The position numbers and the translations under genes were made by a program. From NCBI GenBank assembly GCA_030248295.1, contig JASANH010000695.1:62001-126000 (forward strand): a stretch of 64,000 bases of DNA, in the 5' to 3' direction. The notes beneath the pieces were generated by a model. The model did no database searches. It saw only the letters and a list, made by a program, of their open reading frames with translations, and was not told the origin of the DNA. Below, piece after piece: positions 19,813 to 60,185 of this stretch. Positions within the stretch are counted from its first letter, which is position 1. Each line of letters begins with the position of its first letter. The stretch comes from Mesodorylaimus sp. YZB2_4 (taxonomy: Eukaryota > Nematoda > Enoplea > Dorylaimida > Dorylaimidae).

Positions 19813-20460
19813 CGTTTCGCTTTCCAGCGTTTGACGCGCTTTGGAAGATACTTGCACTTGTATAGCCTCGTTTTGCAGGCGCCTTGGACTCCCCTGATGT
19901 CACTTGATATGCCCAGCCAACACCTGAGCATATCCCATTACAGTACAGTCCTTCGCCGACCTCTGCCTGATTGCAGTCTCTGCTTGACGGCTTATGCCTA
20001 CAGTATTTTTCAAAAGCTGCATTTTTCTCCTGGATTCTGACTTTAAGGTGATGCTTGATTTATAATTTACGGATAACAACCAATTCTTCGGCACGAATAA
20101 CTGCTATTATCCACTACGGTTATCCATGGAAGGCAAGTTTCCAAACACCGATCTCATTGATCACTGGAAAAAGAGTCAAAATTATCTCGATTTGTTTTGG
20201 CAATACCTGACATCTAGCATGGAAAGGTTGGGCCAGCCTCGGACTCGGTCATCTAGCACCCACGACTCGCAAAGTTTCCAGTCCCACGAATGCAATGGCC
20301 TCTTGGCAAGATCATCAAACTCTGTACGGGAAGAGATGGATTTGACCGAAAAACATTCCCAACTGCCTTCCAGGCGACCTTTCAAAACTTGGCTCCGCTT
20401 GAAGCACAACTCACAGCCTGAGCATACGTTGAGGCAGCGATGCATGCTCTACTTGTAATG

Positions 20461-21524
20461 TACACGGACTCTCACTGGCGCATTATGTTTCACGATCATT
20501 TTGATCAGATCCAGGATATTCAGTACTTGATTCCCCCTGCTCCTATTTTCTTCCACCCCACTTCCTCTTCTTATAAGCCATTATCAGGCTCTCGTAGTAA
20601 GATTTTCTATTCCCTACTCTCTAGTTCCGTGTATTCTCCTCCTACCTCTGAACGCTCATGGATACGAGATCTTGGTATTTCTGAAATATTGCCCTTCTTT
20701 CGGCTATTACCTCGACTAAAATTACCCTCCTGGCACATAAATTTCCAATGGAAAGTTTTGCATAGGCTGATTCCCACAAGTCGATTTTTATTCTTAAGGA
20801 AAATACAACCATCTGAAACTTGTCCTCTGTGTGACGAGTCACCTGATGATTTCGAGCATTATTTCTTCTACTGTGTTTTCTCACGTGCATTGTGGGCAGA
20901 TTTAGAAGATAAGTTACAGAGCGTAGAAGTAGATTTTTTTTTGACCAAAGTGAATAGTCTCTTAGGCGCGCCAGATCAAAATATCCCTGTGAATTTATTG
21001 TTGTTATGGACGAGAATCTTTATTTATAAGTGCCGCATGAAGAGTGTCATTCCATCGAGTCATGCACTTTTTGCTTTCATACGATCTGAATTTTTCTTGT
21101 TTAGAGCTTTACAACGTAATCATCCAAATTTTGAGAATATGTTCAGGATACTTTTTGACATGATGGACATATAAGGCCTGATGTTGAGCTCGACGATCTG
21201 ACATGAACCAATCTGAGCTAACATCCCGGGTGCATGCGATCATGGAAAGCAGTGAAGTGCACTGTCTATTGCAGTCAACGCTTCGGCTAACCCACGATAT
21301 ATCCTCTCCTAGATGATAACCGGTGCGCTCAGAAAGGGGATTGGACTGTAAATCGGGTTTGGCAGACGGTCCTTTTTTTATGTTCCTTTTTGCTCAACAG
21401 TGCTTCGATTCGTGATTGTTCGGTTCACATCTCTAGCTTTTTTGCCTTGTTGTACTCCTGCCGCCAATGCACTTTTTTTTTCTTGGGAAATAAAACTTGA
21501 TATAAAAAAAATACACGGACTCTC
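20461..21524 (+). mobile_element. 5'-truncated LINE (non-LTR retrotransposon) with 13-bp target-site duplication
   Basis: The element body (20474-21511) ends in an A-rich tail (AAATAAAACTTGATATAAAAAAAA) and is flanked by the exact duplication TACACGGACTCTC at 20461-20473 and 21512-21524. It encodes the C-terminal end of a LINE ORF2. Truncation at the 5' end, A-tail and duplication are standard for target-primed reverse transcription. Confidence 0.85.
20474..21174 (+). pseudogene. C-terminal fragment of LINE ORF2 (zf-RVT region)
   Basis: The frame encodes about 232 residues read through from the truncated 5' end. The segment WKVLHRLIPTSRFLFLR, then CPLCDESPDDFEHYFFYC, then FSRALW is the CPLC...EH..F.C zinc-binding region found after the reverse transcriptase in L1/Tx1-type LINEs. 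The reverse transcriptase itself is absent because of 5' truncation. The frame is intact to its stop, which suggests a fairly recent insertion. Confidence 0.75.
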
Positions 21525-38952: not shown

Positions 38953-38999
38953 CTCGCTCATAGCACAAAGTCGCTGGGGCGACTTGATAGCAAGTGGGT

Positions 39000-40010
39000 T
39001 TTTTGTGTAAAGCTCATAAAAGAGAGATTGACGCAGAAAACAGGAAAAGGCGTCTAGGATTAGAAAACGAGCTCGAAGTTGTTAAAAAACGTTTGACCCT
39101 GCATCCAAAGAGTGATATTTTGAAAGCGGAATACTTGGATACCGCCACGGTATTCAAGTATCCGGTATCCAAGTATCCAAGTACTCACGGGGTGGCTGAT
39201 AGTGTAAAAAGGGAGGCGCTGGGAGAAGATGTTGGAGTAGAAGAGATACGAACGTTCATCCTTTCATTTCAAAAGAAGGAGACTCCGGGCAGTGATGGGC
39301 TGCCCATTAAGTTATACCTTTTCTTTCTGGGAGACCTTAGGGATATTTTAAGAAGGGTATATGCAGCATCTTTCAAGCTGGGGCATCTTCCAGGGTCTTG
39401 CTATTATGGAATTATCTCGCAGCTTTACAAAGGAGAAGGAGCTAAACCTTTGAGGTCCAGCTGGAGGCCTCTGACAATGCTGAATGTGGACTATAAGATA
39501 TTGGCAAAGGTGCTAGTTATGCGATCGAGAAAAGTGATGGGAAAAATAGTGCACCCAGATCAGACTTGCTCTGTACCTGGGAGAGACATTCGAGATGGGG
39601 TTCTCACCGTGTACAATGCTGTGGAGTATATAAGCGAGATGGAGATGGACGCACTAATTCTATCAGTAGACCACATGACTGCTTCCGATATTGTTTAGTG
39701 GGAGTACTTGCATCGGGTCTTGGAGTATTTTAACTTAGAGGGAGGCCTTAGAAAATGGATCCGAATTATTTATAAGAAGGGATTGGTGACATCGTCAGTC
39801 CAGGTTAGCGGTTATATTTCTTAATCCTTCCACCAAACCAGGGGTATCAGGCAAGGATGTCCTTTATCAGCTTTGTTGCACGTTTTGGTGTCCGAGACAG
39901 TGACTAACTTTATTAGAAGGGCTGTCGACCTTCTAGACACTCCAGTAATGCAGGTGCTTTCTGACGCCGCGTCTGGTACAGTTTTAAGATTGGGAAAAAT
40001 GTGAGTGTTA
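39000..40010 (+). pseudogene. Decayed LINE reverse-transcriptase fragment (L1/Tx1-like)
   Basis: The open part encodes LGHLPGSCYYGIISQLYK, SWRPLTMLNVDYKILAKVL, then IVHPDQTCSVPGRDIRDG, the usual order of RT motifs in L1/Tx1-type LINEs. The block that should read S-DQ-KAFD-V is degraded to SVDHMTASDIV followed by a TAG stop at 39696-39698, after which WEYLHRVLEYF and, in another frame, GIRQGCPLSALL continue. A stop and at least one frameshift therefore inactivate it, and the F/YADD segment is not recognisable. An imperfect inverted repeat (ATACTTGGATACC...GGTATCCAAGTAT) lies at 39130-39175. Confidence 0.75.
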
Positions 40011-43193: not shown

Positions 43194-43919
43194 CATACAG
43201 CAAACATGGTATGTCACCACACACGAATAATGCGGAGGACAAACGTCACTGTGGGGATAGCCAGGCCAATCGATGCAAGGAGGTCCCACGATCCAACCTT
43301 TCGGACACCAGTTCAGTGCAGCCCCCGGATGCATCGATCCCTAAACACTGTATGTCATTCATACGCTCAGTCCAACCTCTAGGGTCTCTAATGTGTTGGG
43401 CTCTTACCAATGGACAGCAGCCGCCTGTGTCTGGGTGACAAGCGTGGAAAGCTCTAGGACAATCGGCCCGGTCGTCGGGTTTTGTGCGGTCGCATTCCGA
43501 CGCTTCAAAGTCAAATCGCGGTTCGTAACATTTTCCAAGTTGCTAAATCCATCATTACTGCCACAGCTATGTTTTTTATTTAAGGAAGATCTTACCTTTT
43601 GTTTGCAGCATATGCTCTCATTGGTGCATTCATATCCGTACGGGCACAGTGGTTTCTCATCTTCAAATCTGCTGCACGCGTGGCTATAACCAGAAATGTC
43701 AGCCATTCCTTCGGGGCACTGAGGCTGAAAAAGTTTTATCTCTCTCATCGTTCACTTAACTTATTTGTTTTAATAATATGTTCTGCTAATCGCAGAGAGA
43801 CTACAGTCGACAGACGACAGAGAGTTTTATGCGAGCTGAAAACATACTGGCTTCCATTCTCGCTTCAGGCTGGATCCCCAGCTCGCAGACACCAGGCACA
43901 AGAATATTACAAACCCCAT
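43194..43919 (-). CDS. Secreted cysteine-rich protein, paralogue B (four exons found)
   Basis: Exons run 43919-43848 (24 codons, signal peptide MGFVIFLCLVSASWG), 43724-43596, 43542-43408 and 43340-43194, all phase 0. The last three are 129, 135 and 147 nt, identical to paralogues A and C. Modules are CPEGMADISGYSHAC...CPYGYEC...CC; GKCYEPRFDFEASEC...HACHPDTGGCC; HPGAALNWCPKGWIVGPPC...CC. All acceptors are canonical. Exon 4 ends at a good donor (ATG|GTAAGCC), but the final exon is uncertain: a CAG acceptor at about 43125 would give a short tail or an immediate stop. It probably acts outside the cell (matrix, cuticle or defence); no family function can be named with confidence. Confidence 0.75.
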
Positions 43920-46516: not shown

Positions 46517-47571
46517 TCAATTTCCTTTCATGGTAGATTTTCTGGGTGCTTTTGGCAATTTATGGAGCTGGTGATGACGAAAGTGAGATGGATTTTGCCA
46601 CGAATAGTTTGCATCGACCTCGTGGTTTTCACGCCACTGGCAGAAAATGACGATGTAAAATAATAAAAATTTGGTCAAGTTTACTTACCATGCAGCAAAC
46701 ACGACTTCGAACATTACAAATGTAGTGCTGAGGACATTTGTCAGCGGTGGAGTAGCCTGAATAATAAATACAAGGAGGTCCCACGATCCAACCATAGGGG
46801 CACCAGCTTAACGCAGCTCCGGGGTACATTGATCCCTGAAAAGTGGCATCTTATAAAACACTGCAAAGATAGGAAGTAAAATTCTTTAATCTATCATAGT
46901 TATCCATTTTTTATGCTTCTCAATAACCAGAGCAAACCGGGCCTAAGGGGAATAAGACACCACCATTGTGGGGGATTGTACTCTACTCGGGGACCATTTA
47001 ATGAGTACCCTCCTTTAGTAATCAGATTGCAGAGCTTGGTCTCTCGTGCAAGAGAATTCTTACATTTTGCAACCTGGCCGTTTAAAGATCACGAAAGGAA
47101 AGCTTAAGGAAATTTTAGCTTTTACCAATGGGCAGCACCCGCCTGTGTCTGGATGGCAAGCGTGGAATGCCCTGTGGCACTCAGCCCGGTCGTCTTCTTT
47201 ATGGGGGTCGCATTCTGCCGCTTCAAAGTCGTATCGGGGTTCAAAGCATTTTCCGAGGCGCTGAAAAGAAAAGCATATTTATTGTTTACGTTGTTTTGTA
47301 GGCAACAGTGTCCTACCGCTTGTTTGCAACACACGTTTTGTGAGGTGCATTCGAATCCATACGGGCATGGGGGCTTCTCGTTGTCATCATAATTGCACGG
47401 GTGAGCACGACCAAAAACGTCTCCCGTTCCGTTGGGACACACACCCTAAATTAGGTATTTCAGGCGAGCGACGTAGGTACAAGTGGTTTTTACCAGTTTC
47501 CAATCGGGCTGCACGATTTGGGATTGGCCCACAGCAATGAAGCCAATGCATAATAATATTACTGCTTTCAT
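46517..47571 (-). CDS. Secreted cysteine-rich protein, paralogue C (five exons)
   Basis: Exons run 47571-47494, 47445-47317, 47260-47126, 46835-46689 and 46636-46517, all phase 0, giving 202 aa. The leader MKAVILLCIGFIAVGQS is a clear signal peptide. Modules match A and B: CPNGTGDVFGRAHPC...CPYGFEC...CC; GKCFEPRYDFEAAEC...HACHPDTGGCC; YPGAALSWCPYGWIVGPPC...CC. The last exon adds 39 residues (WRENHEVDANYSWQNPS..., ending KSTMKGN) after a 52-nt intron with a CTGCCAG acceptor; this tail is Cys-free and His/Lys-rich and has no counterpart that I can see in A or B. Splice sites are all canonical, so this is the best-preserved copy. Role unknown, extracellular. Confidence 0.8.
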
Positions 47572-49610
47572 TAGTTCTTCTTTTTCACGTTTATCGCACG
47601 TATTGTCAGAAGCTCTAGTTAAATTTTTTCTTGGCTGTTTTGTCTCATATAAGTGCCTCGCAATCAACACCAGATGTCCAATTATAATTTACTGCCAGCA
47701 CCCTTTAATGTTTTGTGTGTGAAAAAAGCCCTTAGGTTTTTGCAATCATTCAGAGCACAACTCGTGGAATAAACAATTTGCAACGCAGAAAATATGATGA
47801 TAGGAGACTTTTTCTAAATTGCATTATATTTCTGAATATTAGACAAGGCAAGAGCTTGCTGTTTGTTCTTACTGTATTTGACGTTGATGTGCGCAAAGTG
47901 CTGTCGAGTTGCCGTTGACACACCTTTAGAAAACAGATCCAGTTGGTAGGTTTTAACGTAAGCAGCGCGTTGTGGGCTACCAAAGGTGCTGCAGAATCTG
48001 GCTAAAAATGCTTAGTTTTCATGCAGTTGCAACATTTATGGTCGATTTTTTCGATGCTGTATTATGTATTATAGGATGGTGGCTTTTGATATGGCTTCAA
48101 TTCGATTGGACCTGGCCTGGAAATATCGTTTCTCCTCTCTTATTTGTTCTTTTAGACTCAGTGATGGCTAGGCCTTGTGTGTATTGGTGTTTTGCATGAT
48201 GTATTATGTCTAATCTTCTCCTGACAACCAGTGTAATAATTGTCCTGCCATGATCAGTTCTTGTTCCTGAACCAGTTTTTCTTGAATTGTCAATTATGTG
48301 TTCCTTAGCCCTCGAGTGCGCCTTATGGTGCTTGGCTATGGATAAAGTATGACATGACATGACATGACAATTTTCAAGGCGGGATTGGGTATGTAAGGAG
48401 CTGACTCTTTCGTGTAGACAGAGTTGCCTATATCGCGTTTATCCTCGGTGGTCTTCATCCTGTAAAATACGTTTTATAAGTGTATCAAGGCAGTTTCGCG
48501 GCCGGGAATTGCGCTTCCATCCATAGAGACGCTCCACGTTGGATAGGAAGTAAATTTGGTGTGGCGGAGTTGGAGGGACTGAATCAGAGTGATGATCGTT
48601 TCCCAGGCAGGCTGAAGTCTCGAGCAATCTCATTGTAGAAGCTTTATGATACTGTGATAAATATCGAGTAAAGTATCTTATTCGGCCAATAATTTTATTC
48701 GCGCGCCAAGCTTTTTATGAAAAACCAGTGCAAAGGGACTCGGTTGTAAAAAGCGGCGTAAGTTGTGGATTTAGTACATACTGTATATATACTACTGTAA
48801 ATTCAAGTGCATTTCATCATTAGTAAGATGTCGCTTTACACAAAATCAGTACCAGAATGGCCACCCATCAAGCGTAACACCTGTGATTTCTGTCCCCAGT
48901 GTAGACTGGGGTAGCCTGCAGGTCCGAATCACTCACTATAGACAGACAGTAACGTTAGGAACGTATTGACGATGAGTGAGTGTACTATTCCGACTAGCGG
49001 ATAACTTCGACGATTTGATCGTACACTAATGCACAGGCAGGGAAGATCGAAAGGCGAAGGGCAAAGTCATTCCAGTAGGCTGATCGCGGCCGTACTAGGA
49101 GCAATTGACAAATTTTGCGTGAAAAAAGAAGCATGTCAAAATTGCAAGAAGCCAAGGCACAAACAGCGGACTCGTGTCACTTAGAAAAAGAAAGCCTGAA
49201 GCACGTCGCCAGAAAAACAAGCGTGCCACCTCATTTGGTCAATCGGATGTTTGGCATGTTTAAATTACGGCCCAGAGCCATGAATCGTCGCAGATACACT
49301 CCATGACCGCGAAAGCGATCTTTTCTCGACTATTTTCTTCCAGTTTTGCGTGCTGCATTCAGTGCATACTGCCCCCTTACCCTCTATTGGACTGACCTCC
49401 AAAAAGGTATGGAAAAACTACAGAAAGTTCAGACTCGAATTTGGCCTCTCGAATCTGGGATAATATAAAATGGATCATTCCTCTCTCGGCGCAACAAAAG
49501 TAAACGTAAAGTGCCCATTCTCGGTTATAGAATAAACTAATGATTTCTCGGTCCTTCTCAAATAGCACGGCACGGCAGAATGCCTTCACATAACAAACAC
49601 TTTTAGACAA
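47572..49610. other. Intergenic region
   Basis: A small ATGAC microsatellite lies at 48349-48369. A 63-codon plus-strand frame at 49115-49306 is Lys/Arg-rich but has no recognisable domain. Nothing else is supported. Confidence 0.55.
48349..48369 (+). repeat. (ATGAC)4 microsatellite
   Basis: Four tandem ATGAC units. Confidence 0.8.
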
Positions 49611-50792
49611 TCAGGTTTTATTTCTGCTGGGCACTACACTACAATTTGAGCTAGTCATTAATTCCACTGGACAAGCCACTGGGCGAAATAAAATGGAAGG
49701 ACTATCAGCATTTATGAGCCAATCAAATCGCCAGTAGCATCCTGCCCTCAACTTAGGTTCTAGCTCGTCGCAACCCAGTCTGCTACCAACTTCACCACTG
49801 GACATCGCAACAGTCATTGCTGGCGAGCCTGGACTCGGGCAATCACTTAGAAGACCAATACCAGATCCAGGAATTAGCAAGTCGAAATGGTTTTTGCCAA
49901 TATCGCAGCCAGTTTTAAGAGCTCGCACAATCATAATTTTTCCATTCGCTGGTCGACTGGTAAATTTCAATTCGAAACACGAGCACAACCAATCGTGCTC
50001 TAATCGACCTGGCAAATGAACTGAAGCGAAGCCATAGGATAATTTCTGACTAACGTCCCAAGGCTGGATATTATGATGACAATCACAATCATTCGATTCA
50101 TGGTCGATATTGCAGCAATTCCAGTACTTACTGGTTTTTGCTGGCGTAGGTGCAGATCTCATCACCCCACATATGGAATATCCATAATAAGGCATAACAT
50201 CATCGAGTGTGACTGGATTTCTTTTCAAGAAGCACGTCCCACCGCTGTACTTATTCCAGGTGAAATGGGTGCAACCGACAGTCCGCGAGCATTCCACACC
50301 GCACTGATCACTGAATGGGGCACTGACTGAACTCATGTCGTCATTATTCCAATCACAAAAATGAGCCCAATAAAAATCATTCTCTGCTTTCCAGTTGATT
50401 TTATTTCTCATCACTGCATTTTGATCGATACCATTATTTTCAGGAATCTTGTTTCTCGATTTCATCATGCCACAAACCGAATATTGTTTGGTGGCCACAG
50501 CATTGTCCAGACTGGTATCATTTCCTTTCAACCAGCAAGTCCCTTTCTCAAAGTCATTCCATGTGAAGTGAGTACAATCAGGTGATTTAGAGCATTCGCC
50601 TCCACAAAGCTCTCCAAGAACTTTCACCGACCCCAAGTCATTGCCAATCCAGTCGCAGTATTCAGCCCAATAAAGGTTCACTTCCTCGCGCCATTTCAAA
50701 GAATCCTTCGAATTATCGTTTTGATTACCTTGCGCCCAAACAATCGTTGCTAAAGAAACTGTCAAGACTGACAATATTTTCATATAGAACAT
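49611..50792 (-). CDS. Secreted PAN-PAN-GH45 fusion protein (cellulase-like, catalytic base altered)
   Basis: A 393-aa intronless frame. Residues 1-20 are a signal peptide (cleavage near VWA|Q). Two PAN/apple-like domains follow, about 33-110 and 133-211, each with YWA-[YF]-CDW, CG-EC, CTHFTWN, GTC-LK and CG motifs. Residues 222-388 are a glycoside hydrolase family 45 domain of fungal subfamily-A type: KYWNCC, PWDVSQKLSYGFASV, FELKFTS, GKIMIV, GCDIGKNHFDLLIPG, AGCYWRFDWLINAD, ACPVEL. The acid Asp of NHFD (D304) and the auxiliary Asp (D297) are present, but the base, normally Asp in YWDCC, is Asn225 (codon AAT). GH45 enzymes cut beta-1,4-glucan by inversion using both acids, so activity may be lost or altered. 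A TTTTTTTCTTGCAG acceptor ends at 50812, 20 nt before the ATG. PAN modules may take the place of a cellulose-binding domain. Confidence 0.9.
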   Translation of the reverse strand: MFYMKILSVLTVSLATIVWAQGNQNDNSKDSLKWREEVNLYWAEYCDWIGNDLGSVKVLGELCGGECSKSPDCTHFTWNDFEKGTCWLKGNDTSLDNAVATKQYSVCGMMKSRNKIPENNGIDQNAVMRNKINWKAENDFYWAHFCDWNNDDMSSVSAPFSDQCGVECSRTVGCTHFTWNKYSGGTCFLKRNPVTLDDVMPYYGYSICGVMRSAPTPAKTSKYWNCCNIDHESNDCDCHHNIQPWDVSQKLSYGFASVHLPGRLEHDWLCSCFELKFTSRPANGKIMIVRALKTGCDIGKNHFDLLIPGSGIGLLSDCPSPGSPAMTVAMSSGEVGSRLGCDELEPKLRAGCYWRFDWLINADSPSILFRPVACPVELMTSSNCSVVPSRNKT

Positions 50793-50830
50793 TGTCCGTG
50801 CAGTCAGGAATCTGCAAGAAAAAAAGATGT
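50793..50830 (-). promoter_or_regulatory. 5'-UTR splice (or trans-splice) acceptor of the PAN-GH45 gene
   Basis: TTTTTTTCTTGCAG, with its AG at 50812-50813 on the minus strand, precedes a 19-nt leader and then the ATG. It is a strong acceptor: either a 5'-UTR intron ends here or a spliced leader is added. Confidence 0.5.
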
Positions 50831-53597: not shown

Positions 53598-56500
53598 TAC
53601 ATATTATGAATAGGCGAGTGGCATTTGATATGGCTTCGATTGAGTGGACGTACATTTCGGCCCGAGCACCGACCGTACAAGCCTTCGTTATTACTTCATC
53701 TTGGAATTTGAATACAGAAACTGGAACAAACGCCAGTATCAGCGTCCTTGAAAATTCGATGCTCATATTGGCCTGCTTGGCCAGTTATCCAGTGATTTGG
53801 CAGAAGGACGAAGTACATTCAGCTTTGTACTTTTTAGATTCGCCGCACCATTGTGTTTTTTTTAGCAATTTATTAAGCAAAGTCGTACATTTAATCCGAG
53901 TCTAGAAAAACAGGGCTTATATGAAAATAACCCGAGAAACTATGAGTTAGACGATGAGCTATTAATTATAGCAATTGACAATTATCGGTCATTGCTGATG
54001 TTTCGAAACATATCTTCTGACTCGATTGGCGAGTATGTGTGCACAGAATATGGCAACAATGACACACATTTGATCACAACAGTTCAGTTGAACGTGCATT
54101 CAATGCCAGGTGAGACGTTCCCCGCTGGGTCCTCTCCCATTATTCATATGGCTCACACATCTCACTGTCAGTGCGTCGCTTTGTGTGTGTCCACAGCAAT
54201 GACTAATCGTGAGTAGGTAGAACTTCAATATCATGGACACAGCCACTTGCGACCACCGGCCCCTGACGACGTTTTGCGAACGCAACGGAAGCATGTACCC
54301 GATGCGCTGTCTTTACAGTACCATGAGCAAAAAATTTTGTAGTCTGCATCATCTGAATATTTTGCCGTCAGAAAGATGTCACACCTTTGATCTGGGTATC
54401 CGTTCGGGCAACTGCTAACTTATGAATAGTCCGAGTGACAAAAACGGATGACAAGCTGTGTGACGACCTTACATAGCTCCAAATTTTCCGGAGTTTATCT
54501 CCTTTAGCAGGAATTCCGCTGCAAGCAGCATAAGTTATCAAGTTTCTGCAAAAACTTTCTTTTCTGCTGCCTTATAAAACCTGATCAGTGCACAAAGTAT
54601 ATATTTCACTTGCTTTCAATGACCGCCTGGACACCCCGCGCTTCTTGTTTATTATATCACAAAAACTGGCACGTGCCCATTTTTATGTTTAGATCCGAAA
54701 CCCTTTGCTCAAATAGTGCAAGCTGGTTTCGATATAATTGACACACCCGATCCGACGCCATATCACGGTTATTGGAAAGAAGTGATTGATATCCCAATTA
54801 TTTTCTCACTACCTGAAGATGGTGATCTGACACAAGAAATAACTACACCAAATTACGTCTTACTTCTCACATCTAATATGTCTGTTGTGTATGCGCCGGA
54901 CAGAAGCGTGGGAGCGGGAACAAAGACGATTGATGCTAATCTGGGCCAGACGACCTTGCGAATGACCAAAGATGGGCGAGAATTATTGTTTTTGGATAAA
55001 GGAACGCTTACAATTAATTTAATCACCACTTTGGCAAACGCCACGAATATATCTCGCCAATGGGCTCCAAAAGTACAGAAAAGTGAATTCGCACTTGCGA
55101 CTGAGCTAGCCAATTCCTACACAAGTGCTGCCACACTTTTGAATGGGAAACCGTACTCGCTTCAGTTACATTTCTATACAGACGCTGTCATAAGAAGAGC
55201 GAGACTTCGCGTGCAGGAATTGATTCCTGGTGAGAACACTGATAAATGTGCAGCCGAGATCGTTTCTCCCGATCAAGCCTCAAACATTTGCGGAGTTCGC
55301 GGTTTTAGTTTGGTAAAAAGAATTGGAGCACAAATATTTCTTTACTCAAAACGTCCCTGCTCATTTTCGGTTCTTATAGCAGCGACAATTGATAACAAAG
55401 ACGAGCGCTTAGCTTCTATGATATCTGCCCCAACCGATACAATGATATCAGGGGGATCGACTGATTTTTATCAAGATGTACTTGGACCAATTAAAAAGAA
55501 AAGGCAAACATTGATGACCGAATATGTCAATGAAACACTCACATTGAACTGCGTCGTACCAGCCTGCCAACTGTTCGTGGTGGTCGGCTGGTGCAGTGCT
55601 GATCAGAGAATGATTCCAACCGGCTGCGCCTGGCTTCCATTAGAAACCAGGACCCGTCTGAATGCAATAAAAAGAGAGAAAAAGCTCACTGACGATCCAT
55701 CAGTGGCTTTCTCCATTCGAAATGTGAACAATAGTTTGGTTAGTTATGACATGACCATCGCGCCTTTGTCCCTCAATCATGCTGGATCATTCGCCTGCGT
55801 GATTGCGAAAACGATTTTGAATCAGCCTCATAGGTTGACTATTGATCGCCAATATGATTACCATGTAACTGTCCAGGAGCCCTTGGCACCCACTTTCTCT
55901 GACAAACAAAGGTTTGGCGTGGAAGTGAAAGTTCTTGAACGTGGAAGTAGACTACCACTGACCTGCGACGTGGAGGGACGCCCGCGGCCAGATATCACTT
56001 GGACGTGGAATAATCGACCAGTGGACAACCACACTGCTGGGTTCCGTCTTTTGAGTTCTGCTACGCTGGAGATTGATAGAAGTGGACGATTCACGTGTTA
56101 TGCTTCCAATAAATATGACAATAATGGTCGAATATTTGACGTTCGGTACGAAAACGAAAAGCGGTATTTGCCATTTGCGATCGCCATATCCTGTGTTCTG
56201 ATTATTCTGGTGGTGGCAGCGTTGTTCATCTTCTTGCTATGGCGTAGAGCCCTGAAAGTAATTGACATAACTTGGAGACAAATTTCTCTCGTGTGAGCTC
56301 TTATGTGATTTAAGGCTTCTTTCAAACAACTGGCGAAAAAGCTAAAACGTTCGGTGGACTGTGGTGAATTGAACCCGTATTTATTTCTGAACGATCAACT
56401 TGATCAACTGCAATATAATCGAGAATATGAGGTTGAACGCCATCGATTTACAATTCGTGAGGATATCGTGCTTGGCGAAGGCGAATATGGAATTGTCTAC

Positions 56501-59500: not shown

Positions 59501-60185
59501 AAAGAAATGCGACCACGATGCAGCAAACATGGGTCAGACATTCATACATTTTAGATGGTCGTTTGGGATTGTATGCTGGGAAATCTTCGGGTGCGGAGAA
59601 GATCATCCGTATTCAAACCAAAACTTTGGCATCGACGACCTTCGCTTTTGGTTGAACGAAAAGGAAGCGAATCGGATGGGTGCTCCAAAAATTGCGTGTG
59701 TTGAATTGTAAGAGATGCACATACAGTGTTTATGAAAATCCTGTTTTGTATCAGGTAAAACTGATCTTAATTTCAGGTATCAGATTATGCGCAAGTGCTG
59801 GCTAGGTAATCCCGAAGCACGTCCGACATTCAGCAAATGTAAACGGGAAATTGGAAATCTTCTGGAAAGAAAATCAATCACGCAATACAAATCCCTATTT
59901 TTGATTTTGCATAAAGCATCGCGTAAAGTTTCCAAGTCACCAATTTCTGTTCCGCCCATCGTGTCTGTTGCAAATCAAAACAGCGAAACCCCTCCTGCCA
60001 TAGAAGCAATGTGCTCCCTCAAGGAATGCCCAGTGCAAGAATATAATCAGACCTTGAATGAGGAAATGAAGCTGCTTCAGGTGCCGGAAAAGTGTAGTTC
60101 TTCAAAGAAAACTATTGCGCAATCAGATTATGTTCAAGCAGAAGCAAATATTGTGAAAACAGAAATCGCAATATTGGAAGATTAG
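53598..60185 (+). CDS. Ig-domain receptor tyrosine kinase, VEGFR/PDGFR-like (5' end incomplete)
   Basis: Exons 53598-53812, 53866-54109, 54693-56257, 56315-56582, 56637-56842, 59121-59201, 59264-59451, 59555-59707 and 59777-60185 join in frame to about 1,108 aa. The ectodomain has an N-terminal Ig-like domain (LILACLA...IWQ...GEYVCTEY), a long middle, and membrane-proximal Ig domains (LNCVV...SFACVI; LPLTCDVEGRPRPDITW...RFTCYAS). One transmembrane helix (FAIAISCVLIILVVAALFIF) is followed by a kinase domain with GEGEYG, VAVK, LNLLGG, HRDLALRN, DFG, WMAPE and DIWSFGIVCWEIF. ALKDELTLMSNI...VNILNLLGG is closest to VEGFR/PDGFR/FGFR. All catalytic residues are present, but the activation loop (RQKSVQRKKAGEVLAFRW) has no tyrosine, and the kinase insert is short. 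The tail has Tyr in EYNQT and DYVQA. Signal-peptide exon not found. An AATAAA lies at 60207. Confidence 0.87.
57925..57975. repeat. Perfect 17-bp inverted repeat with 17-nt spacer
   Basis: GACACACGATTTGTCAG (57925-57941) and its exact reverse complement (57959-57975). It lies in the large intron of the receptor kinase and is followed by further GTCAGAG/CTCTGAC words. Confidence 0.8.
58905..59035 (+). repeat. GGGTTNGGGTT-rich intronic stretch
   Basis: It contains several short words such as TGGGTTGGGTTTGGG, GGGCTGGGTTCGAC and GGGTTGGGTTTGGG. It is not a regular telomere array. Confidence 0.5.

Follow-up and report, generated by a model that had tools for sequence, protein, structure and literature searches.

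The locus lies within a 64,000-nucleotide stretch of contig JASANH010000695.1 (positions 62,001 to 126,000, hereafter the window) from the nematode Mesodorylaimus sp. YZB2_4 and consists of a single open frame on the minus strand (49611..50792), running from position 50792 down to 49611 with 393 codons followed by TGA. The deduced protein of 393 aa starts with a hydrophobic N-terminus that was judged by eye to resemble a signal peptide (residues 1-20, 50733..50792) and continues with a first PAN module (residues 32-112, 50457..50699), a second PAN module (residues 132-213, 50154..50399) and a GH45 domain (residues 219-385, 49638..50138), all on the minus strand, the GH45 domain being shortened by about 30 residues in its N-terminal third. 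In the Pfam scan the GH45 family PF02015 was found at residues 225-384 with 111.4 bits (cut-off 27), the match spanning just profile positions 48-213 of 214, while PAN_1 (33.8 bits, cut-off 21.4) and PAN_4 (27.6 bits, cut-off 27) each matched in two stretches. The sequence-only reading, which had described a signal peptide, two PAN modules and a GH45 domain in one frame, is thus confirmed by scores over the cut-offs for the domains and by eye for the signal peptide. Both PAN modules show the pattern CDW..CG..C..CTHFTW..GTC.LK..CG with conserved cysteines, share 46% identity with each other (37/81, pairwise) and resemble, at the sequence level, the apple domains of Toxoplasma MIC4 (E 7.9e-5). 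Because of these Pfam scores, and because the same PAN-then-GH45 order is present in a second gene of the genome (L001 on contig C56), chance can be excluded for this frame. An assembly chimera as the source of the fusion was set aside, as L001 has this order in one frame.

Upstream of the gene the sequence TTTTTTTCTTGCAG (50812..50825, minus strand) resembles a 3' splice site and ends 19 nt before the ATG, and therefore a putative 5' leader intron or trans-splice acceptor is possible. At the other end AATAAA is found at 49617-49622 on the minus strand within the last codons before the stop, which suggests a very short 3' UTR, if it is used. Neither Rfam matches at gathering scores nor tRNAs were found within the window. 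An Ig-domain frame (54623-56293, Ig_3 46 bits) and a weak kinase-domain tail (frame 59736-60182, 17.5 bits vs a cut-off of 23.1) are located nearby, so that the contig is animal in character and the proposed occurrence of a PAN-PAN-GH45 fusion in an animal genome holds. The minus strand also carries two small, mutually similar Cys-rich frames without a Pfam match (47122-47442 and 43407-43751; CPYGFECTSQNVCC and CPYGYECTNESICC), the former beside a frame (47446-47670) that appears by eye to start with a signal peptide. Remnants of reverse transcriptases are present on the plus strand at 38991-39695 and 20422-21171, with RVT_1 at 26.6 bits (cut-off 29.6) and zf-RVT at 42.5 bits (over the cut-off).

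To take a look at the active site, the GH45 domain was aligned with four other copies from the same genome (5 own-genome rows in total), 2 PDB rows and 80 bacterial rows. The position of the catalytic base Asp10 (Humicola numbering) is occupied by Asn225 (codon AAT, 50118..50120, minus strand) in the window copy, which is the sole such row, as Asp is present in the other 4/4 own-genome rows, in both PDB rows and in 80/80 bacterial rows, the last count being biased because the bacterial rows were fetched with peptide patterns including TRYWDCCK. Including the copy on C66, which reads YWDCC, all five of the other own-genome GH45 copies reaching the site show Asp there; the match L007 covers only profile positions 170-214 and is therefore uninformative on Asp10. 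Tyr8, Ala74, Asp114 (Asp297) and the proton donor Asp121 (Asp304 in the motif HFDL, codon 49881..49883, minus strand) are all kept, and a Ser replaces the Thr two residues before Tyr8. The stretch from the YWxCC motif to QPW counts 15 residues in the window copy vs 46 in C56, and both the Pfam start at profile position 48 and a gap in the alignment show that the N-terminal third is incomplete. Eleven of the 14 cysteines of the 1l8f row match Cys in the window copy, the exceptions being row positions 15, 54 and 84. Positions 15 and 84 are presumably a disulfide pair in Humicola-type enzymes, and the absence of both would then be a matched loss. The chains closest to the domain in sequence are of the subfamily A type, among them 1l8f and 2eng; an expansin family or CBM63 match was not found in the protein with Pfam up to E 1, nor was CBM1 in the Pfam scan. 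It does fit the pattern of expansins and loosenins, namely a GH45-like barrel with the acid Asp present and the base Asp absent. With the base replaced by Asn and an N-terminal block missing, the earlier description of a working cellulase is probably wrong for this copy.

An AlphaFold model, built with 21 bacterial rows, was poor overall (mean pLDDT 56.3, pTM 0.48) and contained a confident GH45 core, with block pLDDT values of 73-95 over residues 241-310 and 331-380 and low blocks of 44-58 at residues 221-240 and 311-330. The PAN modules were unfolded and unusable as homologous rows were wanting, and therefore the model gives no structural support for sugar binding by PAN. A Foldseek search gave 10 matches at E <= 0.001, all of them GH45 chains, and the first match after these was the fungal expansin 7wvr (E 2.9e-3).

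A profile search of the genome (145 Mb in 1067 contigs) identified 7 GH45 matches. The PAN-then-GH45 order was found again at L001 and L006. L001 on C56 encodes 325 aa in one frame with a signal-peptide-like start, one PAN module and a complete GH45 domain including the catalytic residues, and L006 on C84 encodes a PAN module and the first part of a GH45 domain, whose second half was not detected by a motif search of 10 kb there. The copies on C364 and C127 are GH45 domains without a PAN match, and that on C66 is broken by an internal TAA. The window gene had been taken for an isolated oddity, which no longer applies given one intact (C56) and one truncated (C84) PAN-GH45 gene and PAN modules in front of other wall-active domains. 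It is also true that its coding frame is unbroken, as had been noted, but this does not mark it as acquired or retro-copied DNA, since the frames of the GH45 copies on C56, C364 and C127, of a PAN-thaumatin gene and of 3/4 PAN-PAN-X genes are uninterrupted as well. A retro-copy or lone acquisition was set aside in view of these uninterrupted GH45 and PAN frames on other contigs.

The springtail cellulase 5h4u (Cryptopygus antarcticus) was the best PDB match for both L001 (298 bits) and L003 (311 bits). A GH45 tree was built from 4 own-genome copies, 4 of the 10 PDB hits and 26 of the 80 bacterial loci, the truncated C84 and the stop-bearing C66 copies being left out. The own-genome copies group next to the springtail row in this tree, weakly supported (73/80), and this thin sample of rows is also why the donor of the GH45 domain cannot be judged from the tree. 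The branch of the window copy is long (1.99), those of the remaining three rows from this genome measuring 0 to 0.16. Two bacterial GH45s (L046 from Myxococcus and L047 from Corallococcus) show 60% identity to the C56 copy and the other 78 listed show 49% or less; a transfer between bacteria and eukaryotes is possible from this identity.

The window protein as query against the genome gave 23 listed places, one being the gene itself, with 5 matching the GH45 part and 17 the PAN part. In L014 a PAN module precedes a thaumatin domain, and in L018 on C66 it precedes the start of a GH18 domain, where the first exon alone is below the Pfam threshold (19.5 vs 29.6 bits) and the next frame matches GH18 with 217.7 bits; we infer that both exons form one PAN-GH18 gene. 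On C84 PAN modules are found before GH16 β-1,3-glucanases, the joined pieces of one gene matching PDB laminarinases (best E 1.3e-16), while neither the 5 single-exon pieces nor the joined pieces gave a match to GH16 in Pfam, and NCBIfam gave no match. Four further loci, of which one contains two stops, encode a PAN pair followed by a conserved C-terminal domain of ~200 residues, here called domain X (L027, 1417-2601; L015, 886-2145; L019, 886-2250; L020, 1735-2544). A PDB search up to E 5 gave no match for domain X, and Pfam gave two weak ones, each in 1/4 members (E 0.078 and 0.15); with such results a by-eye reading of domain X as expansin-like was dropped. NCBIfam gave no match for four proteins. 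PAN-GH45, PAN-GH16, PAN-thaumatin and PAN-PAN-X loci are all present within ~95 kb of C84. On C66 the stop-bearing GH45 copy (C66:290465-291061) lies ~6 kb from a PAN exon (C66:297145-297420) whose continuation in frame resembles the beginning of the GH18 gene.

A phylogenetic tree of 20 PAN modules, without the PAN of C625 (L024) and the partial L029, was mostly unresolved, with 3/17 inner branches starred. The row nearest to PAN module 1 of the window protein by path is the PAN of the C84 GH45 gene (60% identity), and the PAN of the C56 GH45 gene forms a pair with that of the thaumatin gene (84/94); in this mostly unresolved tree, such placements hint at an exchange of modules. Upstream of L014, L022 and L027 (3/13 genes examined) two elements precede the ATG, GCGTGGGAA at a distance of 77-105 nt and TATAAAA at 51-58 nt, possibly representing a shared promoter of some PAN genes. 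A shared promoter including the window gene was dropped, as the gene is not among these three. Taken as a family, these genes are best read as a PAN-tagged wall-degrading secretome, of which the window gene is probably a non-hydrolytic member.

In order to analyze whether the protein is still constrained, a branch codon model with four sequences, 163 codons and three topologies was used for the GH45 part. The window branch had an omega of 0.15-0.19 and the other branches one of about 0.05, these values being rough as synonymous sites are saturated, and omega 1 was rejected for the window branch in 3/3 topologies (2dlnL 8.6, 9.5 and 9.7). It was also rejected for PAN module 1 (omega 0.033, 2dlnL 9.1) and PAN module 2 (omega 0.047, 2dlnL 14.2). 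Among the control foreground branches C364 (28.6) and C56 (17.4) rejected omega 1, and C127 did not (0.01), which we took as uninformative because the GH45 tree gives this branch a length of 0. The rate on the window branch was not significantly above the background (2dlnL 0.5-1.6), and as dS is saturated too, a relaxed constraint on this GH45 domain is unsupported. With neutrality rejected for the GH45 part and for both PAN modules, the PAN-PAN-GH45 protein looks constrained and is still kept as a protein, though dS is saturated.

From the sequences compared here, we consider it probable that the window protein binds cell walls without hydrolysing them, as a partner of the intact PAN-GH45 enzyme and its sister enzymes. 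The family follows one design, in which a putative signal peptide and one kind of PAN/apple module are followed by varied domains acting on cell walls, namely GH45, GH16 β-1,3-glucanase, GH18 chitinase, thaumatin-like and the unnamed domain X. The window protein would be secreted, its PAN pair might dock on glycans of plant, algal or fungal walls or of secreted glycoproteins, and its GH45 part would retain the β-barrel and the groove and bind β-glucan, without hydrolysis by the usual inverting mechanism of Asp10 and Asp121. PAN as the putative anchoring part, which had been proposed from the sequence, is plausible. For the oomycete protein CBEL, binding of galactose or GalNAc is described, which its authors hypothetically assign to PAN, and the same authors noted a Toxoplasma PAN protein binding chondroitin sulfate (PMC3532174). 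As for catalysis, simulations of a Humicola D10N mutant have been cited as indicating a possible non-hydrolytic reaction (PMC9888185), and for the beetle GH45 LDE9 from Leptinotarsa, in which Asp10 is replaced by Asn, no activity was seen with the substrates tested (PMC6509783); LDE9 is altered at Tyr8 as well, so that Asn10 is not the sole difference. Enzymes of subfamily C are described as active without Asp10 (PMC5829257), and therefore the loss of Asp10 alone is not proof of inactivity.

These subfamily C enzymes are also the model for an active endoglucanase in which an amide, Asp297 (Asp114) or a repositioned water would take the role of the base. Asp114, Asp121, Tyr8 and Ala74 are all retained, and one group of subfamily C uses Asn as the base (PMC5829257), but this Asn is at a different site from Asn225 and the window sequence is closest to subfamily A-type chains. 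As the stretch following the base is lost, as are the cysteines at row positions 15 and 84, and the beetle copy with Asn10 is inactive (PMC6509783), we regard such activity as quite unlikely. A higher, although still low, probability is given to an expansin-like function, in which a GH45 fold with the acid and without the base loosens cellulose or chitin networks with no cleavage and the PAN pair replaces the expansin binding domain. The combination of Asn10, the retained Asp121 and the Ser two residues before Tyr8 points in this direction, since expansins and loosenins are described as GH45 barrels with an Asp121 equivalent and no Asp10 base (PMC9888185, PMC5829257), and 7wvr was the first structure beyond the GH45 chains. 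However, the 7wvr match is a weak one, of the kind that any GH45 would be expected to give, and the protein has neither a CBM63-like second domain nor an expansin family match.

The long branch of 1.99, the internal deletion and the lost base could also be those of a decaying duplicate, a pseudogene in progress whose frame is open by chance, and a plainly broken GH45 copy is indeed present on C66 of the same genome. Such decay appears unlikely to us, as 393 codons are open, both PAN modules are intact and omega 1 was rejected in the GH45 part as in each PAN module. The picture drawn by the sequence-only reading, in which this gene alone would encode an active cellulase with PAN anchors and would stem from recent acquisition or retro-copying, agrees with the intron-free coding frame and with the widely held view that animal GH45 genes were acquired horizontally (PMC6509783, PMC13084967). 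We nevertheless consider it very improbable: Asp10 is lost, the L001 paralogue of like architecture contradicts its uniqueness, PAN is common to other enzymes of the genome and the splice-acceptor-like leader TTTTTTTCTTGCAG is located upstream.

The preferred reading of a non-hydrolytic partner within a PAN-tagged family would have consequences beyond this gene, as such a family would show an animal-built targeting of wall-degrading enzymes made from PAN, where microbes use CBMs. A bolder and rather doubtful version is that in this animal lineage a GH45 domain joined to lectin-type PAN modules lost its base and turned into an expansin-like loosener within the PAN-tagged secretome; if true, expansin-like loosening would have arisen from a hydrolase a second time. 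The gene offers a natural Asp10-to-Asn GH45 under constraint, and with the intact PAN-GH45 paralogue from the same genome as a control, the proposed transition of a GH45 hydrolase to an expansin-like protein can be tested directly.

GH45 proteins have been described in springtails, mites, beetles, nematodes, tardigrades and rotifers, and their repeated acquisition has been proposed (PMC6509783, PMC13084967). The fusion with paired PAN modules had been said to have no known precedent, and this stands for a full-text literature search whose scope excluded preprints and most subscription papers: no animal PAN-GH45 was found among the matches listed. A further full-text search gave, among the matches listed, no paper combining GH45 with 'PAN domain' or 'apple domain', and no GH45-PAN fusion is mentioned in the available parts of the two fungal-secretome papers that contain both GH45 and a PAN term (PMC4480369, PMC11609419). 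Agreeing architectures reported in PMC13084967 are those of one springtail and two fungal proteins, the word PAN being absent from its main text. The invertebrate GH45 endoglucanases (5h4u from the springtail and those of beetles, mites and nematodes) are like the window protein in having a GH45 domain and in being of the secreted type, whereas the window copy has Asn for Asp10, an N-terminal loss and two PAN modules. LDE9 shares the change of Asp10 to Asn in an animal GH45 and has been expressed and tested, but it differs in that neither PAN modules nor a large deletion are mentioned in the available part of its report (PMC6509783). Expansins and loosenins have the GH45-related barrel and the acid without the base Asp in common with the window protein, which in contrast is clearly a GH45 by sequence and has PAN modules instead of CBM63. 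Among PAN proteins, the PAN-subtilases of Aphanomyces are likewise secreted hydrolases with PAN in an accessory role, although these are oomycete proteases with PAN at the C-terminus (PMC10084794). CBEL with its CBM1-PAN repeats is similar in its two PAN/apple modules, in being secreted and interacting with cellulose and, as far as its report is available, in having no proven catalysis; it binds cellulose via CBM1, whereas the window protein pairs its PAN modules with a GH45 fold, and does so in an animal (PMC3532174).
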